In this document: one piece after another, positions 3,721 through 26,517 of the stretch
Position numbering within the stretch: position 1 is the stretch's first letter
How the letters are laid out: every line of letters begins with the position of its first letter
Origin: a virus
Length of the DNA: 37,554 nucleotides
IMG/VR virus record: IMGVR_UViG_3300034061_001879
Location: 1-37,554 of that record
Direction: 5' to 3' (one strand)
Made by a program: the position numbers and the translations under genes
Notes under the pieces: model-generated
Seen by the model: the letters and a program-made list of their open reading frames with translations, nothing else
Told to the model about the DNA's origin: nothing
Databases searched by the model: none

Positions 3721-4725
3721 ATGGCAAACGTAATTAACACCGTTCCGGTACAAGAAACAGAAGGCTACAACCTTTATGTAAAACCACTTTTAGACGACCC
3801 ACAAATTCAATCTTTACCGTTTGATATGTTAGTAGGCCCGTTCAAAAACCACGAACTTTACTTTACTCAAAACTTGGATAAGATTTCAAGTAAGAAAGTA
3901 GCGTGTGGTTGGAACTTCAACGGTTCAACCGATGTAACGAAAAAAACATTAGTACCTGTTGAAATTGAAGCAGCAGTAGAGCAATGCTACACACCATTAA
4001 TTAACACTATCTATGCAGGTGGGTTGCCTGATGGTTGGAGACGTGGTGAGTTAAGTGCAGAAGTATTAGCGTTTATGGCTACACGACAACAGTATGCATT
4101 TAACAGAGATTTACTGTCATTCTTGTTCTTAGGTGATACTATTAGCGCAGTACCTTATTACACTCCGTTTGATGGTATTTATAAGAAGTTGAAAGCAGGT
4201 GCAAACGCTTCAGATGGTACTGTTTTCGCAGGTGCTATTACAGCTTCTGATTTGAATGCGACTAACTTCTTTGCTACTATGAAAGGCATTTATGACGCTC
4301 AAAATAGACAGTTAAAAGGTGTGGCTAAGAATGCTAAAACATGGATTTGGACTGAAGCGGTTTATGATGCTTACTTGAATTACTTGTATGTGTCAACTCA
4401 AACCAATGCAGGTATCATCCAAAGAGAAAGCATCGTTAATGGCTTAGAAGCTAACTTCTTCTTAAACATTCCAATCTTAGTTGTACCTATCGTTGACGAA
4501 AGATTAGAAGAAGATTTCTTAACAGGTTCACCTGCTGCACCTACTAATCCATATCGTGTTATTTTGACTGACCCAAGCAACCACAAATTATTGATGGATG
4601 CAAACGGTTTAGCACAACAAGAAGCATGGTACGAGAAAAAAGACGATACCTACTACTTAATAGGTAGCGCACTTATCGCTTATGAGTATGGCTTTGGTGA
4701 TTTGAACGTAATCGCTGGATTTTAA
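3721..4725 (+). CDS. Major capsid protein
   Basis: The 334-residue protein starts three bases after the protease stop. Its position straight after the protease/scaffold gene, its size and its composition (few cysteines, many beta-prone stretches, a C-terminal segment about an early-encoded fold ending in AYEYGFGDLNVIAGF) fit an HK97-fold capsid protein. I recognise the context more firmly than any single motif. It is followed by a short intergenic hairpin and the probable tail tube gene. Confidence 0.8.
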   Translation: MANVINTVPVQETEGYNLYVKPLLDDPQIQSLPFDMLVGPFKNHELYFTQNLDKISSKKVACGWNFNGSTDVTKKTLVPVEIEAAVEQCYTPLINTIYAGGLPDGWRRGELSAEVLAFMATRQQYAFNRDLLSFLFLGDTISAVPYYTPFDGIYKKLKAGANASDGTVFAGAITASDLNATNFFATMKGIYDAQNRQLKGVAKNAKTWIWTEAVYDAYLNYLYVSTQTNAGIIQRESIVNGLEANFFLNIPILVVPIVDERLEEDFLTGSPAAPTNPYRVILTDPSNHKLLMDANGLAQQEAWYEKKDDTYYLIGSALIAYEYGFGDLNVIAGF

Positions 4726-21161: not shown

Positions 21162-21684
21162 AATCTGCAAAGAACCATTTGTTAAAATTAGACCAATACA
21201 GCCTACCTGTAAGAGTTATGACTGTATGGTAGCATTTGCAAAGAACGTAGCAGAAAAGGCTATTGTAAAAAAGAAAAAGGCACAAACTAAGGTATTGAAG
21301 GAAAAGTTAAAAACATTAACCGATTACGAAAATGAGGCTAAAAAAGAATTTCAAAAATATATCCGCAAAAGAGATGAAAATTTACCATGCGTAAGTTGTG
21401 GCACTTTTCAAACTGATATTTGGGACGGAGGACATTTTAAAAAAGCAGAACTATATTCAGGAGTTATATTTGATGAAATGAACTGCCATCGCCAGTGCCG
21501 TAAATGTAACCGTTTTTTAGGCGGTAATGAATTGAACTATCGTGAGGGTTTAGTAAAAAGATACGGTATTGATTATGTTTTAGAAATTGAAGAAAGGGCA
21601 TTAAGATTAAAAAGACATAAGTATAATAAGGAAGATTTAATTGGATTAAAAAACCTTTACAAAGAAAAAATCAAACATTTATAA
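21148..21684 (+). CDS. ninG: NinG-family recombination protein (Rap-like nuclease)
   Basis: The 178-residue protein has the family's N-terminal zinc site (CKICKEPFVK, then C at about 21 and 26), a helical linker, a second Cys pair (LPCVSCG) and the signature WDGGHFKK with HRQCRKCNRFLGG. NinG/Rap proteins cleave Holliday junctions or D-loop intermediates in phage recombination. It fits with ERF and NinB-like genes upstream. Confidence 0.88.
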   Translation: MPKCKICKEPFVKIRPIQPTCKSYDCMVAFAKNVAEKAIVKKKKAQTKVLKEKLKTLTDYENEAKKEFQKYIRKRDENLPCVSCGTFQTDIWDGGHFKKAELYSGVIFDEMNCHRQCRKCNRFLGGNELNYREGLVKRYGIDYVLEIEERALRLKRHKYNKEDLIGLKNLYKEKIKHL

Positions 21685-21908
21685 TGTTCAGCAGCCATAG
21701 AAACTTAGACCGCCACGAACTAAACCCTATTAAGGGAAGTATAGTAACATCTTTAAATACCGGCAATAGGTTTAGAATAGTAGATATTGATTTTAACACT
21801 AAATTTGAAGTCATTAAATACTATTTTCAAACGGCTTCAAGTAAGGATGGTAAGGTACACGAATTAGATTTAGATATTTTTTGGGAAACATTTACAACAA
21901 TGAATTGA
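21684..21908 (+). CDS. Hypothetical protein, 74 residues
   Basis: Starts in a one-base TAATG overlap with NinG. A beta-rich, soluble protein (SIVTSLNTGNRFRIVDIDF, FEVIKYYFQTASSK) with an acidic end. No family recognised. It ends the early recombination run before the leader at 21909. Confidence 0.55.
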   Translation: MFSSHRNLDRHELNPIKGSIVTSLNTGNRFRIVDIDFNTKFEVIKYYFQTASSKDGKVHELDLDIFWETFTTMN

Positions 21909-22036
21909 AAATTATTTACTAATATTGCAAAAGGTTGTGCAGAGCCTATATCTAACCTTATTAGCCCTTATTTGTGAAAGAAGCCTGCACGCTTCGAGTA
22001 GCGGTAGGGGCGTTTTAATTTTATGACATACTTAAA
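21909..22036 (+). promoter_or_regulatory. Leader region with AGCCT...AGGGGC hairpin
   Basis: The 128 bases before the Ibr-like operon contain a weak -7-like TAATATTG (21920-21927) and a hairpin AGCCT-gcac-GCT...AGC-ggt-AGGGGC (21982-22011) followed by a T-rich tail. A five-codon ORF starting at 22023 ends in an ATGA overlap with the next gene. This looks like an attenuator or translational leader; the promoter is not certain. Confidence 0.45.
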
Positions 22037-22450
22037 ATGAAACAAATATTTGAGACATACGATAAATGGGAAGACTATCATTGTGGAATGTACAACCTTA
22101 ATGATGTTTTAGATAAGGACAAAAAAGTAATCAATGCTATTTATCTTTTATCTTCAACCGAACAATTTTATAATGTTTGTTTAGAAATATTAGATAAATG
22201 GAAAGTTAGTTGTGATGTTAATTTAAGTAATAAAAACCAAAATAGAAGGGCTTGGCTAGGTGCAGCAGCGTGTACATATTTGCATAATTGCCCTGAATAT
22301 TTAACAAGAATAGCATGGTCTTTATTAAATAAAGATGTTCAAGACAAAGCAAATAATATAGCTGAAAAAATTATTAAGGAATATGAAAGAAAGAATACTA
22401 AAGTACATACAGGAGTGGGAAACCAAATGTTATTACAATGGAATACCTGA
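22037..22450 (+). CDS. Hypothetical protein, 137 residues, Ibr operon
   Basis: First gene of the IbrA/IbrB-like operon; it follows a five-codon leader ORF with an ATGA overlap. A soluble, helical protein with a Trp-rich N-terminus (YDKWEDYHCGMYNLNDV), a central KNQNRRAWLGAAACTYLHNC segment and a Lys-rich end. Similar small proteins accompany phage IbrA genes; the family has no assigned function. Confidence 0.6.
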   Translation: MKQIFETYDKWEDYHCGMYNLNDVLDKDKKVINAIYLLSSTEQFYNVCLEILDKWKVSCDVNLSNKNQNRRAWLGAAACTYLHNCPEYLTRIAWSLLNKDVQDKANNIAEKIIKEYERKNTKVHTGVGNQMLLQWNT

Positions 22451-22643
22451 TGAAGCCCCACATGAATTGGAAGTAAGAAATAAAGTGCCATCATATAGAA
22501 AAATAGCAATAGCAATATTAAAAAATGATAATTCACTTAAAACACTTGGATTAAACACATTTATATCAAAGTATTATAGTTGCTATAAAAAAATAGAAAT
22601 AGAACAAAGAAATAAATCAAAACAACTAAAACTTAATTTATGA
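22383..22643 (+). CDS. Small protein related to the C-terminal domain of IbrA
   Basis: The 86-residue protein overlaps the upstream gene by 68 bases and the IbrA-like gene by 4. Its segment VPSYRKIAIAILKNDNSLKT resembles the IbrA-like protein's VASWKRFAITILKNDHTCKY, so the two share a domain, likely a DUF3440-associated helical unit. It may help IbrA bind its substrate or partner. The relation between the two is visible directly in the window. Confidence 0.65.
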   Translation: MKERILKYIQEWETKCYYNGIPDEAPHELEVRNKVPSYRKIAIAILKNDNSLKTLGLNTFISKYYSCYKKIEIEQRNKSKQLKLNL

Positions 22644-23935
22644 TAAAAAAATTAGAAATTAATGTACTTGAGGCTTCAAAGCAAAGAATTACTTACATAC
22701 TTCAAAACTTTAAAAAAGTATATGTAAGTTTTTCAGGAGGCAAAGATAGCGGTGTCATGCTTAATCTAATGATAGATGAAATAAGGCAAAATTACCCTGA
22801 CAGAAAGATAGGCATAATGATCTTAGACAATGAAGCTAACTATAATCTTTCATTAGAATTTATGCATCGCATGATGCAAAACAACAGAGATGTGTTAGAT
22901 ATTTATTGGTGCTGTTTGCCTATTACTTTACCTTGTACGGTATCAAGTTATGAGGTTGATTGGCAGTGTTGGGGAGAAAACGATAAAGATAGGTGGATAA
23001 GACCAATGCCAAAAGATGATTATATAGTTAATATTAATAACCACAAATTCCCTTTTTTTAAAGAAAACATGGGTTATCAAGAGTTTTGGGATGAGTTTGG
23101 CGAATGGTATTCAGGTGGCGAAGACTGCGCCTGTTTAATAGGCATTAGAACACACGAAAGTTTAAACAGATGGAGGGCAATAGTTAATGAAAATAAAGAA
23201 ACGCATGGTAATAATCTATGGACAAAACGAAATACACAGCATACATATAATTGCTACCCAATTTATGATTGGAGAACAGAAGATATTTGGATAGCAAACT
23301 GTAAATATGAATGGGATTACAATAAGTTATATGACGTTTTTTGGAAAGCTGGTTTGTCTATTCATCAAATGAGGGTTGCCTCTCCATTTATGAGCGAGAG
23401 TAAGAGTTCATTAAATCTTTATAGAATAATAGACCCACATGTATGGGTAACATTATGTGCAAGGGTAAACGGTGCAAATTTTGTAGCTACATATGGTAAA
23501 CAATTAAATTACCATAGTTTTAAATTGCCAAAAAATCATACTTGGAAAAGTTTTGTAAAATTTTTATTAGATACTTTACCCGAAAAGTCTGCTCTAAATT
23601 TTAAGCAGCGATTTATCCAATCTATTAAATATTGGGGCAGGATAGGTCGAGGATTGCCTGAAAAAACTATACAAGAACTAAAAGATAATAATATTGAATT
23701 TAAGCTAAATGGCAACACGGCACATGGTAATAAAGATAAAGAAAGGGTTATAATACAATCGTTACCAGACCATTTGGATATGCTTAGTTGTCATAATTCA
23801 GATGTAGCAAGTTGGAAAAGATTTGCTATAACAATACTTAAAAATGACCACACGTGTAAGTATTTAGGGCTTGCACCTACAAAAGACCAAATAGAAAGAA
23901 TGAAATACATTAAACGCAAATACAGCAAAATATGA
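22640..23935 (+). CDS. ibrA: IbrA-like PAPS reductase-family protein (DUF3440)
   Basis: The 431-residue protein has the ATP-pyrophosphatase loop SFSGGKDSG (residues 30-38), a MILDNEANYNLSLEF segment, and the DUF3440-type CLPITLPCTVSSYEVDWQCW followed by WIRPMP. This family is related to phosphoadenosine phosphosulfate reductases and DndC-type enzymes, but the true reaction is not established. It sits in an operon with a cupin and an IbrB-like gene. Its C-terminal domain resembles the small protein encoded just upstream. Confidence 0.85.
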   Translation: MIKKLEINVLEASKQRITYILQNFKKVYVSFSGGKDSGVMLNLMIDEIRQNYPDRKIGIMILDNEANYNLSLEFMHRMMQNNRDVLDIYWCCLPITLPCTVSSYEVDWQCWGENDKDRWIRPMPKDDYIVNINNHKFPFFKENMGYQEFWDEFGEWYSGGEDCACLIGIRTHESLNRWRAIVNENKETHGNNLWTKRNTQHTYNCYPIYDWRTEDIWIANCKYEWDYNKLYDVFWKAGLSIHQMRVASPFMSESKSSLNLYRIIDPHVWVTLCARVNGANFVATYGKQLNYHSFKLPKNHTWKSFVKFLLDTLPEKSALNFKQRFIQSIKYWGRIGRGLPEKTIQELKDNNIEFKLNGNTAHGNKDKERVIIQSLPDHLDMLSCHNSDVASWKRFAITILKNDHTCKYLGLAPTKDQIERMKYIKRKYSKI

Positions 23936-24294
23936 AAACAAAAAACGTAAATGAATTAAATGGAGTAGCTTTTACTGGAGGTAAAAGTTACAGGTCAGTC
24001 TTAAAAGATGACAACATGGGCTTTGCTATGATGAAAACATGCATTAATAAAGGCGGTCCATATAAGTGGCATTATAAAAACCACAAAGAAGCATGTTATT
24101 GTGTAAGTGGCAGTGGCTTATTAAAAGATTTAACAAATGGTGTAGTTTCTGAAATAAAAGAAGGAATTACATATTTTGTAGACAATCATCAACCACATGA
24201 ATTTACAGCATTAACAGAAGTTGTATTAATTAGTGTTTTTAATCCTCCATTAAGAGGTGATGAAACTCACGATGAAAACGGAAATTATATTTAA
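23932..24294 (+). CDS. Ectoine-synthase-like cupin
   Basis: The 120-residue protein aligns by eye with ectoine synthase EctC: LKDDNMGFAMMKT, WHYKNHKEACYCVSG, ITYFVDNHQPHEF and VFNPPLRGDETHDENG. The residues of the EctC metal site are present with the right spacing: Glu53, Tyr81 (28 later) and His89 (8 later). No ectA or ectB is seen. It overlaps the IbrA-like gene by 4 bases and precedes the IbrB-like gene, so its substrate is probably linked to theirs rather than to ectoine. Confidence 0.82.
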   Translation: MKTKNVNELNGVAFTGGKSYRSVLKDDNMGFAMMKTCINKGGPYKWHYKNHKEACYCVSGSGLLKDLTNGVVSEIKEGITYFVDNHQPHEFTALTEVVLISVFNPPLRGDETHDENGNYI

Positions 24295-24311
24295 CCAATA
24301 AATTAAAAAAC

Positions 24312-24965
24312 ATGAAAAACAAGATTAAAGAATTAATACCAAATTATGACAGCTTAAGTATTGATGAACAAATTGATGCAATAAATGAAATAAAGATTGC
24401 ATTGCATGAAATTTCACCAATGAAAAACGAGCCTGTCGATTGCGTGTTGTGGGTAAAAAACGAAATGGTAAGGGCTAATGATTATAACCCTAATGCGGTT
24501 GCCCCTCCAGAAATGGAATTATTGAAGCAATCAATTATGGAAGATGGATACACGCAACCTATTGTTTCTTATAAAGAAGAAAACAATATAACTGTTGTAG
24601 ATGGTTTCCATAGAAATAGAGTTGGTAAAGAGGTGCGAGAAGTAAAAGAAAGGGTATTTGGGCGTCTTCCTGTAGTAAATATTAATGAATGGAAACAAGG
24701 TAGAGGAGACCGTATGGCGTCAACAATAAGGCATAATAGAGCAAGGGGTTCACATAATATTGAACTAATGAGTACAATTGTTTCTGAGTTAGTAGAGATG
24801 GGTAAAGGTGATGCATGGATATGTAAACATGTTGGAATGACCACAGATGAACTACTAAGGTTAAAACAAATAACAGGCTTAGCATCTTTGTTTGAAAATA
24901 AGGAATTTTCTAATGCTTGGGAAGCTGAAAAAAGTGATGATTTTATATTCTTAAAAGGTAGCTGA
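24312..24965 (+). CDS. ibrB: IbrB-like ParB-domain protein
   Basis: The 217-residue protein has a ParB/Srx-type N domain: NDYNPNAVAPPEMELLKQSI, then YTQPIVSYKEENNITVVDGF followed by HRNRVGKEV. The following segment has AWICKHVGMTTDELLRLKQI, a helix-turn-helix-like unit. ParB-domain proteins bind and often hydrolyse nucleotides. IbrA and IbrB genes are typically paired; here they are split by the cupin gene. Confidence 0.82.
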   Translation: MKNKIKELIPNYDSLSIDEQIDAINEIKIALHEISPMKNEPVDCVLWVKNEMVRANDYNPNAVAPPEMELLKQSIMEDGYTQPIVSYKEENNITVVDGFHRNRVGKEVREVKERVFGRLPVVNINEWKQGRGDRMASTIRHNRARGSHNIELMSTIVSELVEMGKGDAWICKHVGMTTDELLRLKQITGLASLFENKEFSNAWEAEKSDDFIFLKGS

Positions 24966-25126
24966 ACTATTTTAAATTACCAAAATAAACCGCTATCTTA
25001 GCGTAGAAAATAGCTTTTGTATTAGGTAGAAGATAATACAAGTAATTAGATAACTTTTATAGCCTTATTAGATTTTTGAGGGTGCTTCTACCACCCGATA
25101 AAGTTTGGTAGGGCTTTCTTAATTTT
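24966..25126 (+). promoter_or_regulatory. Leader region before replication genes
   Basis: A -7-like TATCTTAG at 24994-25001 with only a weak upstream TTTA suggests a promoter. The leader then holds an outer pair AGCC (25061-25064)/GGGCT (25111-25115) and an inner hairpin GGGTG/CACCC (25080-25096), with a T-rich tail before ATG 25127. It resembles the leaders at 17605 and 21909. Confidence 0.45.
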
Positions 25127-25843
25127 ATGAACACATACTACATTTTAGGTCAACATGCTCATTGGAATATAAATAAAAGATTAGCTAAAAAAGTTGGTAT
25201 TGAAGCAGCTTTATTGCTTTCAGATTTAATTTCTAAAAGGGAATATTTTATAATTAATAAAGATATTTCTATAACAGATTGGTTTTTTAACACTGCTGAA
25301 AATATAGAAATGGACACTTTATTAACTCCACACAAGCAACGAGAGGCAATAAAATTACTTATTGAACATAATTTTTTAGAAGTTAAATTAATGGGAATAC
25401 CTGCAAAAAATCATTTCAAAGTCAATGATATTCAGTTATTAAATTTTTTAACAACAAGAAGTGAAGAAATTAAACAACAAGAAGTGAAAAATTTTGACAC
25501 TAATAATAATAAAGAACAAGAACAAAGTAATTTTAATAATAGTAATAATAAACCCGAAAATGAATTAACCGAATTACCACCTCATATAAATTTTGCATTA
25601 AGGCTCTTAGATGAAAACGATACAGAGGGGGCAGCACATCTTGAAGCAATAGAATATCAGACGAAAACTAAAATTACTAAAGAACAAACAAAATTATTTA
25701 GAATGCACCTTGTTACCGAAAATAAGAACTACGATAATTTTAATGACTGGATACGACATTTTAGGAATTGGTTAAATACTAAACCAAATGTTAAACCTAA
25801 GCAAGAAATTAAAATGCCTTACGAAAAAAGAAATCAGCAATGA
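25127..25843 (+). CDS. Replication initiator-like winged-helix protein
   Basis: The 238-residue protein opens with a winged-helix pattern of phage replisome organisers (YYILGQHAHWNINKRLAKKV; LTPHKQREAIKLLIEHNFLE), then an Asn/Lys/Glu-rich linker at about 120-150, and a C-terminal helical part (DNFNDWIRHFRNWLNTKPN) that fits a helicase-loader domain. It probably opens the phage origin and loads the DnaB helicase encoded two genes downstream. Start and stop overlap the neighbours. Confidence 0.7.
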   Translation: MNTYYILGQHAHWNINKRLAKKVGIEAALLLSDLISKREYFIINKDISITDWFFNTAENIEMDTLLTPHKQREAIKLLIEHNFLEVKLMGIPAKNHFKVNDIQLLNFLTTRSEEIKQQEVKNFDTNNNKEQEQSNFNNSNNKPENELTELPPHINFALRLLDENDTEGAAHLEAIEYQTKTKITKEQTKLFRMHLVTENKNYDNFNDWIRHFRNWLNTKPNVKPKQEIKMPYEKRNQQ

Positions 25844-26517
25844 AAAAATATAGAATTCTTAATCTTTATGCCTGTTTGGGCGGAAATCGTTATAAATGGG
25901 ATTTAGTAGCGAAACAAGCGGGAGTTGAAATAGAAGTAACTGCGGTTGAATTAGACCCCGAACTTGCAAGGCTATACCAAGAACGTTTCCCTAATGACAT
26001 AGTAATTATTGCCGATGCCCATCAATATTTATTAGACCACTATAAAGAGTTTGATTTTATTTGGAGTTCGCCAAATTGCCCAACCCACAGCAGAATAAGA
26101 TTTAATCAAGCAAAAGGTAGAAATGATAATATTTATAAAGCAGAATACCCAGACATGAACCTATACGCTGAAATAATTTTACTTGATAATTATTTCGATG
26201 GAAAGTTTGTAGTTGAAAATGTAATACCATATTACGAGCCATTAATTACAGCGCAAAAAAGAGGAAGGCATTTATATTGGTGCAATTTTACATTACCTCA
26301 AGTATTAAGCAATAGAGAAGTGCAGGTTGGTAGCGGGACTGAAGAAGTAAAAAAACTATGTGAATTTCACGAAATAGACCTATCAACATACAAAGGGAAA
26401 CAGCGTAAAGATAAAATAGCCCGAAACTTAGTTGACTACGAAGCAGGTAAAACAATATTTGAAACCGCTTTAGGAATAATAAACAAACCCTATACTAAAC
26501 AAGCAGAACTATTCTAA
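25840..26517 (+). CDS. C5-cytosine DNA methyltransferase-like protein
   Basis: The 225-residue protein has motif I as LNLYACLGGNRYKWDLV, an acidic SAM site (VTAVELDPELARLY), a motif IV variant SSPNCPTHSR with the catalytic Cys at about 79 (in place of PPCQ), the ENV of motif VI (VVENVIPYYEP) and RGRHLYWCNF like motif VIII. The space for a target-recognition domain is small. It may protect phage DNA from restriction or act in regulation; the target is unknown. Confidence 0.75.
   Translation: MKKYRILNLYACLGGNRYKWDLVAKQAGVEIEVTAVELDPELARLYQERFPNDIVIIADAHQYLLDHYKEFDFIWSSPNCPTHSRIRFNQAKGRNDNIYKAEYPDMNLYAEIILLDNYFDGKFVVENVIPYYEPLITAQKRGRHLYWCNFTLPQVLSNREVQVGSGTEEVKKLCEFHEIDLSTYKGKQRKDKIARNLVDYEAGKTIFETALGIINKPYTKQAELF

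Follow-up and report, generated by a model that had tools for sequence, protein, structure and literature searches.

A conserved five-gene phage module that combines the IbrA/IbrB core with an ectoine-synthase-family cupin

Gene content and recurrence of the module

The analysed stretch of DNA (hereafter the window) is a single virus record of 37,554 bases, possibly incomplete, that belongs to a tailed phage, as portal, head protease and terminase genes are present. Five genes form an operon on the plus strand of its replication/recombination region, in the company of genes for an exonuclease, Erf, NinB, NinG, a replication initiator and DnaB. The operon opens with orf137 (22037-22450), a conserved partner gene encoding an all-alpha protein, and continues with orf86 (22383-22643), which encodes the C-terminal domain of IbrA/DUF3440 as a free-standing copy. 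These are followed by IbrA (22640-23935, 431 aa), a PP-loop/PAPS-reductase-fold ATP pyrophosphatase with a DUF3440 domain, by a cupin of the ectoine-synthase family (23932-24294, 120 aa; EctC-like, phage clade) and by the ParB-type gene IbrB (24312-24965), a member of the ParB/sulfiredoxin superfamily with an HTH-like C-terminal part. Both orf86 and the cupin gene overlap IbrA by 4 nt, and the ParB gene follows the cupin after 17 nt, which bears out the tight packing described in an earlier note on this sequence. That note had recognised an IbrA-IbrB-like operon with a cupin placed between the two genes; the core pair and the position of the cupin stand, but the operon comprises five genes, and orf137 and orf86 had gone undescribed within 22037-24965.

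The module is flanked by two elements on the plus strand, each consisting of a nested hairpin and a T-rich run. The first (21964-22011), terminator- or attenuator-like, lies just 5' of the module (RNA fold, -20.9 kcal/mol, z -1.8), and the second (25061-25115) directly 3' of it, ahead of the next gene (-25.9 kcal/mol, z -4.3; none of 200 shuffles as good). Their 3' ends share 83% identity across 24 nt (22003-22026 vs 25107-25130). The upstream hairpin was missed by a simple terminator scan, relatives do not conserve the two hairpins and close relatives showed none ahead of orf137, hence the role of the 21964-22011 element is uncertain. No RNA family was recovered by Rfam across 21500-25600. 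A short C5-methylase-like protein is encoded near the module (25840-26517; PF00145 barely above the cut-off), as it is in one other locus (L075, 7717-8376), and relatives are encoded near the module in five loci.

Matches to all five window proteins (tblastn against the first loci) were obtained in Pseudoalteromonas phage XCL1123 and Mycobacterium phages Gaia and Nebkiss, as well as in contigs of IMG/VR, with a gene order that varies among these loci. The profile survey of 81 viral loci recruited with the cupin (one of them, L013, a false hit rejected as a module locus, and some others short or partial contigs) recovered IbrA in 78, ParB in 78, orf137 in 76, orf86 in 75 and all five genes in 74, so that the gene-neighbourhood check proposed by the earlier note came out clearly in favour of co-occurrence and of a functional tie between the cupin and the core pair. 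The association was also apparent from the other genes: the cupin was present in 79 of the 80 best loci recruited with IbrA (those with IbrA closest to that of the window, unselected for the cupin), and orf137 homologues adjoined IbrA/ParB in 75 of the 77 newly fetched viral loci found with orf137. As loci of different searches partly share contigs, these counts are not independent. Among cellular loci recruited with the cupin 78 of 80 were devoid of any partner gene, and two MAG contigs of the cellular set (L233 and L234) carry all five. Of the 174 loci having both genes, 51 encode the cupin and ParB as a fusion (in Gaia and Nebkiss they form a single protein). Purifying selection acts on all five genes (dN/dS 0.03-0.29, with synonymous sites partly saturated; 0.22-0.29 for orf137), and since dozens of divergent viral contigs repeat the arrangement, it lies far beyond chance. 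Thus, orf137, orf86, IbrA, cupin and ParB constitute a conserved five-gene phage module of the DNA replication/recombination region; it is a branch of the IbrA/IbrB family that carries a cupin and has the C-terminal domain of IbrA as a gene of its own as well.

The neighbours of the module are primase/helicase, DnaB, NinB, Erf, RusA and DNA methyltransferase genes rather than structural ones, and no base-supplying or nucleotide-hypermodifying enzyme recurs beside it. PADLOC called no defence system and registered only a weak DndC similarity. MT835761 was discarded as a module locus: its cupin carries the Trp21 of EctC and looks like an ordinary EctC, and module genes are missing. One contig (L188, 223-3889) holds two IbrA genes (442 and 300 bits) flanking ParB and orf137.

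IbrA, its C-terminal domain and the ParB-type partner

The three core assignments of the earlier note (an IbrA with a SFSGGKDSG loop and a DUF3440 core, a cupin with EctC spacing and a ParB-domain gene) withstood profile searches, with 202 bits for DUF3440 (Pfam, cut-off 25), 117.9 bits for PF06339 Ectoine_synth (cut-off 27) and 241 bits for PHROG 2159. The PAPS_reduct domain was likewise above its cut-off in IbrA (39 vs 22.5 bits) and a ParB-type partner is adjacent, as in the IbrA/IbrB pair. The SFSGGKDSG loop occupies residues 30-38, and the PP-loop is fully conserved. The structural model (pLDDT 88) combines a PAPS-reductase/PP-loop fold (residues ~2-260) with an alpha-helical DUF3440 part. 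Over residues 2-260 it matched this fold at Z 13-15, the closest kin being the PAPS domain of human FAD synthase (Z=15.4), followed by ATP sulfurylase (1zun, Z=14.0) and PAPS/APS reductases (Z ~13-14), with GMP synthetase, TilS and LarE at Z ~10. The protein remained far below the NCBIfam CysH models (16.1 vs 154 and 14 vs 165 bits) and the DndC model TIGR03183 (21.6 vs 290.4 bits).

The orf86 product matched the C-terminal part of DUF3440 (E=1.9e-4, 21.7 bits, below the cut-off of 25) and aligned with the IbrA tail at 97% probability (hhalign, E=5.7e-11). IbrA proteins were sorted into lineages by the wording of their active-site motifs, and the orf86 profile matched the tails of lineage I ('SGGKDST') at a median of 61 bits, no separate orf86 being seen there; tails of lineage II, in which orf86 is a separate gene, scored ~21 bits. 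By these profile comparisons, orf86 is the C-terminal domain of IbrA as a detached gene, fused to the end of IbrA in lineage I. For orf137, the AlphaFold model is all-helical (pLDDT 92), and fold searches gave no convincing PDB match (best E=1.9, Z=4.1), which does not imply a new fold.

The ParB-type protein scored below threshold for the Pfam ParB_N domain (18 vs 26.3), while its profile matched the solved ParB 4umk (E=6e-5) and recovered the IbrB proteins of CHPC1230, phiAQ113 and PhiR5_2 at 192-266 bits. Its DGFHR motif aligns, weakly (E=0.24), with VIDGVHRYTSLK of the serine kinase SbnI. IbrB is unnamed in the main text of a survey of the ParB fold (PMC12704722), according to which ParB/Srx folds bind NTPs. 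This NTP binding, together with the early replication-region location and the patchy spread over phages of distant hosts, would suit a counter-defence role in which DNA is left unmarked and the module acts early in infection on a nucleotide or signal (e.g., a defence second messenger or a pool nucleotide), altering or destroying it. We consider such a role unlikely, as no known counter-defence family matches and DNA targeting better explains a ParB joined to the cupin in one chain.

The cupin and its history on the IbrA tree

Ectoine is a salt protectant, and EctC acts by closing a ring through the loss of water. The window cupin aligns over ~105 residues with solved ectoine synthases (5bxx, E=7.6e-23; 5onn) and narrowly misses the NCBIfam cut-off of PRK13290.1 (120.3 vs 128 bits). 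Glu53, Tyr81 and His89, which the earlier note had proposed as an EctC-type metal site, do fall on the iron ligands of the aligned ectoine synthases (EctC Glu57, Tyr84/85 and His92/93), and these ligands are ~99% conserved among 123 distinct phage cupins. Residues matching EctC Ser23, Arg25, Thr40, Tyr52, Phe107, Glu115 and His117 are retained as well.

Two further positions depart from EctC. All 437 EctC proteins of ect clusters that were compared have Trp21 (PMC6344544); the corresponding place is Gly17 in the window, and phage cupins carry Phe or Gly there but in no case Trp. In 57 of 116 phage cupins the Phe sits at the Trp21 place and in 51 of 116 three places earlier, where orphan cellular cupins have Trp. 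The orphan cellular cupins and roughly half of the phage ones, that of the window included, have an aromatic residue shifted to five before the conserved Ser; Phe14 of the window cupin may stand in for Trp21. Asn38, a substrate/product contact, is Met34 in the window and mostly Thr, His or Met in phage cupins (SaEctC itself carries His in the aligned column). In a tree built from a short alignment with few columns, 80 phage cupins formed one clade (support 97), apart from both the canonical EctC and the orphan cellular cupins. Because the iron ligands and most catalytic residues are kept, Trp21 and Asn38 are missing and the phage proteins form a clade of their own, the cupin is likely an EctC-type enzyme with EctC-type chemistry and unlikely to be an ectoine synthase.

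In two published surveys, viral ectoine synthase and PAPS reductase are assigned to auxiliary metabolism (PMC13079714, PMC10232697). Transferred to the module, this would mean a true ectoine synthase and a true PAPS-reductase sulfur enzyme that aid the salt tolerance or sulfate assimilation of the host, in line with the Pfam names and with the 9.7% activity kept by a W21A ectoine synthase (PMC6344544). We regard it as very improbable: Trp21 and Asn38 are not conserved, the phage cupins are phylogenetically separate, IbrA scores far below the PAPS reductase models and the cupin is tightly tied to ParB, orf137 and orf86. Moreover, neither ectA nor ectB was seen within the 37,554-base window (a possibly incomplete record), in agreement with the earlier view that ectoine is not the obvious product. 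Phage XCL1123, named in one of these surveys (PMC10232697), carries the five-gene module.

The orphan cellular cupins have surroundings of their own. An AMP-binding gene lies beside them in 21 cellular loci, and operons with an AMP-binding enzyme, a carrier-like protein and an acyl-CoA dehydrogenase (L242, L244, L276, L298 and others), in some cases accompanied by a transglutaminase-like protein, apparently encode an amino-acid pathway. In four Mesorhizobium loci (L253, L254, L264 and L291) the orphan cupins adjoin proline racemase and amino-acid oxidase genes, a setting that suggests a role in hydroxyproline breakdown. From these neighbourhoods, this side of the cupin family is suggested to act on amino-acid-like substrates.

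The presence of the cupin follows the IbrA lineages closely. It was absent from all 24 loci of lineage I (SGGKDST, CLPIHLRNAVS) and from all nine of lineage IIb (SCGKDSG, AACSVS), present in 110 of 111 loci of lineage IIa (CLPITLPCTVS) and recorded in 10 of 18 of the mixed remainder. On a tree of 126 IbrA proteins its distribution required 2 changes, compared to a mean of 33.6 in shuffled data (0 of 500 shuffles as low), and it accompanied 87 of 88 members of its clade and none of the 38 other rows. Considering the low number of changes, the cupin was probably gained once into one IbrA lineage and then retained near-obligately, which accords with the earlier description of the gene as 'inserted' between IbrA and IbrB (about one gain is needed).

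The sole cupin-less member of the cupin clade (L107) has its cupin slot, between IbrA and ParB, filled by a 1-Cys peroxiredoxin (3868-4617; PF00578, E=2.6e-24). Sulfiredoxin repairs peroxiredoxins, and as it shares a superfamily with ParB, this single case deserves attention. The same slot in cupin-less lineage-IIb loci is occupied by PD-(D/E)XK-like or methyltransferase-like ORFs with weak family matches (L164, 2802-3344, L168, 6729-7256, and L175, 2195-2743; L196, 4150-4695, and L222, 4315-4941), with a PD-(D/E)XK-like match in L175 (PF12705, E=2e-4, just below the cut-off) and a weak methyltransferase-like match (E=0.01).

The tracking of one IbrA lineage by the cupin bears on a regulatory explanation, in which IbrA and IbrB would act as a transcription co-activator or epigenetic switch for phage or host genes, with the cupin as a metabolite sensor that tunes ParB. 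The pair is annotated as 'co-activators of prophage gene expression' in many phages and is so presented in the literature (PMC6008420), ParB has an HTH-like part and the cupin is often fused to it. Such a switch leaves the lineage tracking unexplained, and the complete retention of the PP-loop and of the iron-binding and catalytic residues speaks for enzymes rather than simple binders; we give it only a small chance of being correct.

Proposed function and relation to known systems

We tentatively favour, with somewhat less than even confidence, the reading of the module as a DNA or nucleotide modification system in which IbrA would adenylate, the cupin would close a ring and ParB would target DNA. 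This reading rests on the enzyme classes, the ParB fusion and the replication-region neighbourhood. In outline, IbrA (with orf86 and perhaps orf137) would bind ATP in its PP-loop and adenylate a carbonyl so as to activate it, releasing pyrophosphate; the adenylated carbonyl would then take an amine or sulfur, as in TilS, GMP synthetase and thiolases. The cupin, often joined to ParB, would remove water and form a ring on the attached amino-acid-like group (an EctC-like closure on another substrate), and ParB would keep the machinery on DNA or provide an NTP switch. Most likely, the resulting product would serve as a mark on phage DNA, for protection against host nucleases or for regulation. A more specific version, that of a new DNA hypermodification class (PP-loop adenylation of a base or nucleotide, addition of an amino-acid-like group and formation of a cyclic amidine, hence a novel nucleoside, by a ParB-tethered EctC-type cupin), strikes us as rather doubtful.

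Several lines of evidence count for a modification system: the near-obligate co-occurrence in viruses, the absence in cells (the two MAG contigs aside) and the single gain on the IbrA tree; the cupin-ParB fusions (51/174) and the fusion of orf86 to IbrA in the sister lineage; the conserved EctC metal and most catalytic residues of the cupin; the adenylating or ATP-pyrophosphatase enzymes among the structural kin of IbrA; the replication/recombination neighbours and the PD-(D/E)XK- or methyltransferase-like ORFs in the cupin-less slot; and the presence of ParB and PP-loop/PAPS-reductase proteins in known DNA-modification systems (DndB/DndC, DpdB). Against it count the existence of a minimal IbrA/IbrB pair, annotated as a co-activator of prophage genes, the weakness of the DndC similarity, the lack of a recurrent base-supplying or hypermodifying neighbour and the alternative that the cupin is a ligand sensor.

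The IbrA/IbrB and EctC families are already known, and the combination of the five genes is described in no paper that we found. Our literature search, which covered few subscription journals, returned no account of the module as a whole, of the split-off orf86, of a single acquisition of the cupin or of its loss of the EctC Trp. The database records of Gaia and XCL1123 carry the label 'ectoine synthase/ParB multidomain protein' already. Viral annotations as 'ectoine synthase' or 'PAPS reductase' may well denote this module rather than salt or sulfur metabolism. Phages commonly carry IbrA/IbrB genes (the window IbrA has matches in 215 sequenced phage records), and the cupin lineage offers a handle on them, as the type of reaction is known for the partner that it adds (ring closure, water loss), with XCL1123, Gaia and Nebkiss as cultivable phages in which the module can be studied.

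Among known systems, Dnd phosphorothioation, in which DndB and DndC (of the ParB and PP-loop/PAPS-reductase kinds, respectively) act (PMC10853773), shares with the module a ParB-superfamily protein that is paired with an ATP pyrophosphatase of the PAPS-reductase fold; DpdB acts in 7-deazaguanine insertion (PMC12839542). Unlike Dnd, the module has no recognised DndD/E or desulfurase and a cupin instead, and its IbrA lies far below the DndC cut-off. The phage cupin has the fold, the iron site and most catalytic residues in common with EctC (PF06339), yet it lacks Trp21 and Asn38, forms its own clade and is found outside any ect operon, fused or coupled to ParB. Cellular orphan EctC-like cupins score like the phage ones (113-130 bits), but have Trp where these have Phe and, except for two MAG contigs, never occur by the module. 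A further close relative is the IbrA/IbrB system itself (E. coli IbrAB, YbdN/YbdM; DUF3440 plus ParB-type), for which activation of prophage genes is reported for E. coli only (eib genes; PMC6008420, citing Sandt 2002). The minimal pair of Firmicutes and E. coli phages comes without orf137, separate orf86 and cupin, and IbrA of lineage I reads SGGKDST and CLPIHLRNAVS where the module reads SGGKDSG and CLPITLPCTVS. The module thus has the same core families in the same order, borne by phages, with orf137, the separate orf86 and the cupin as its additions.
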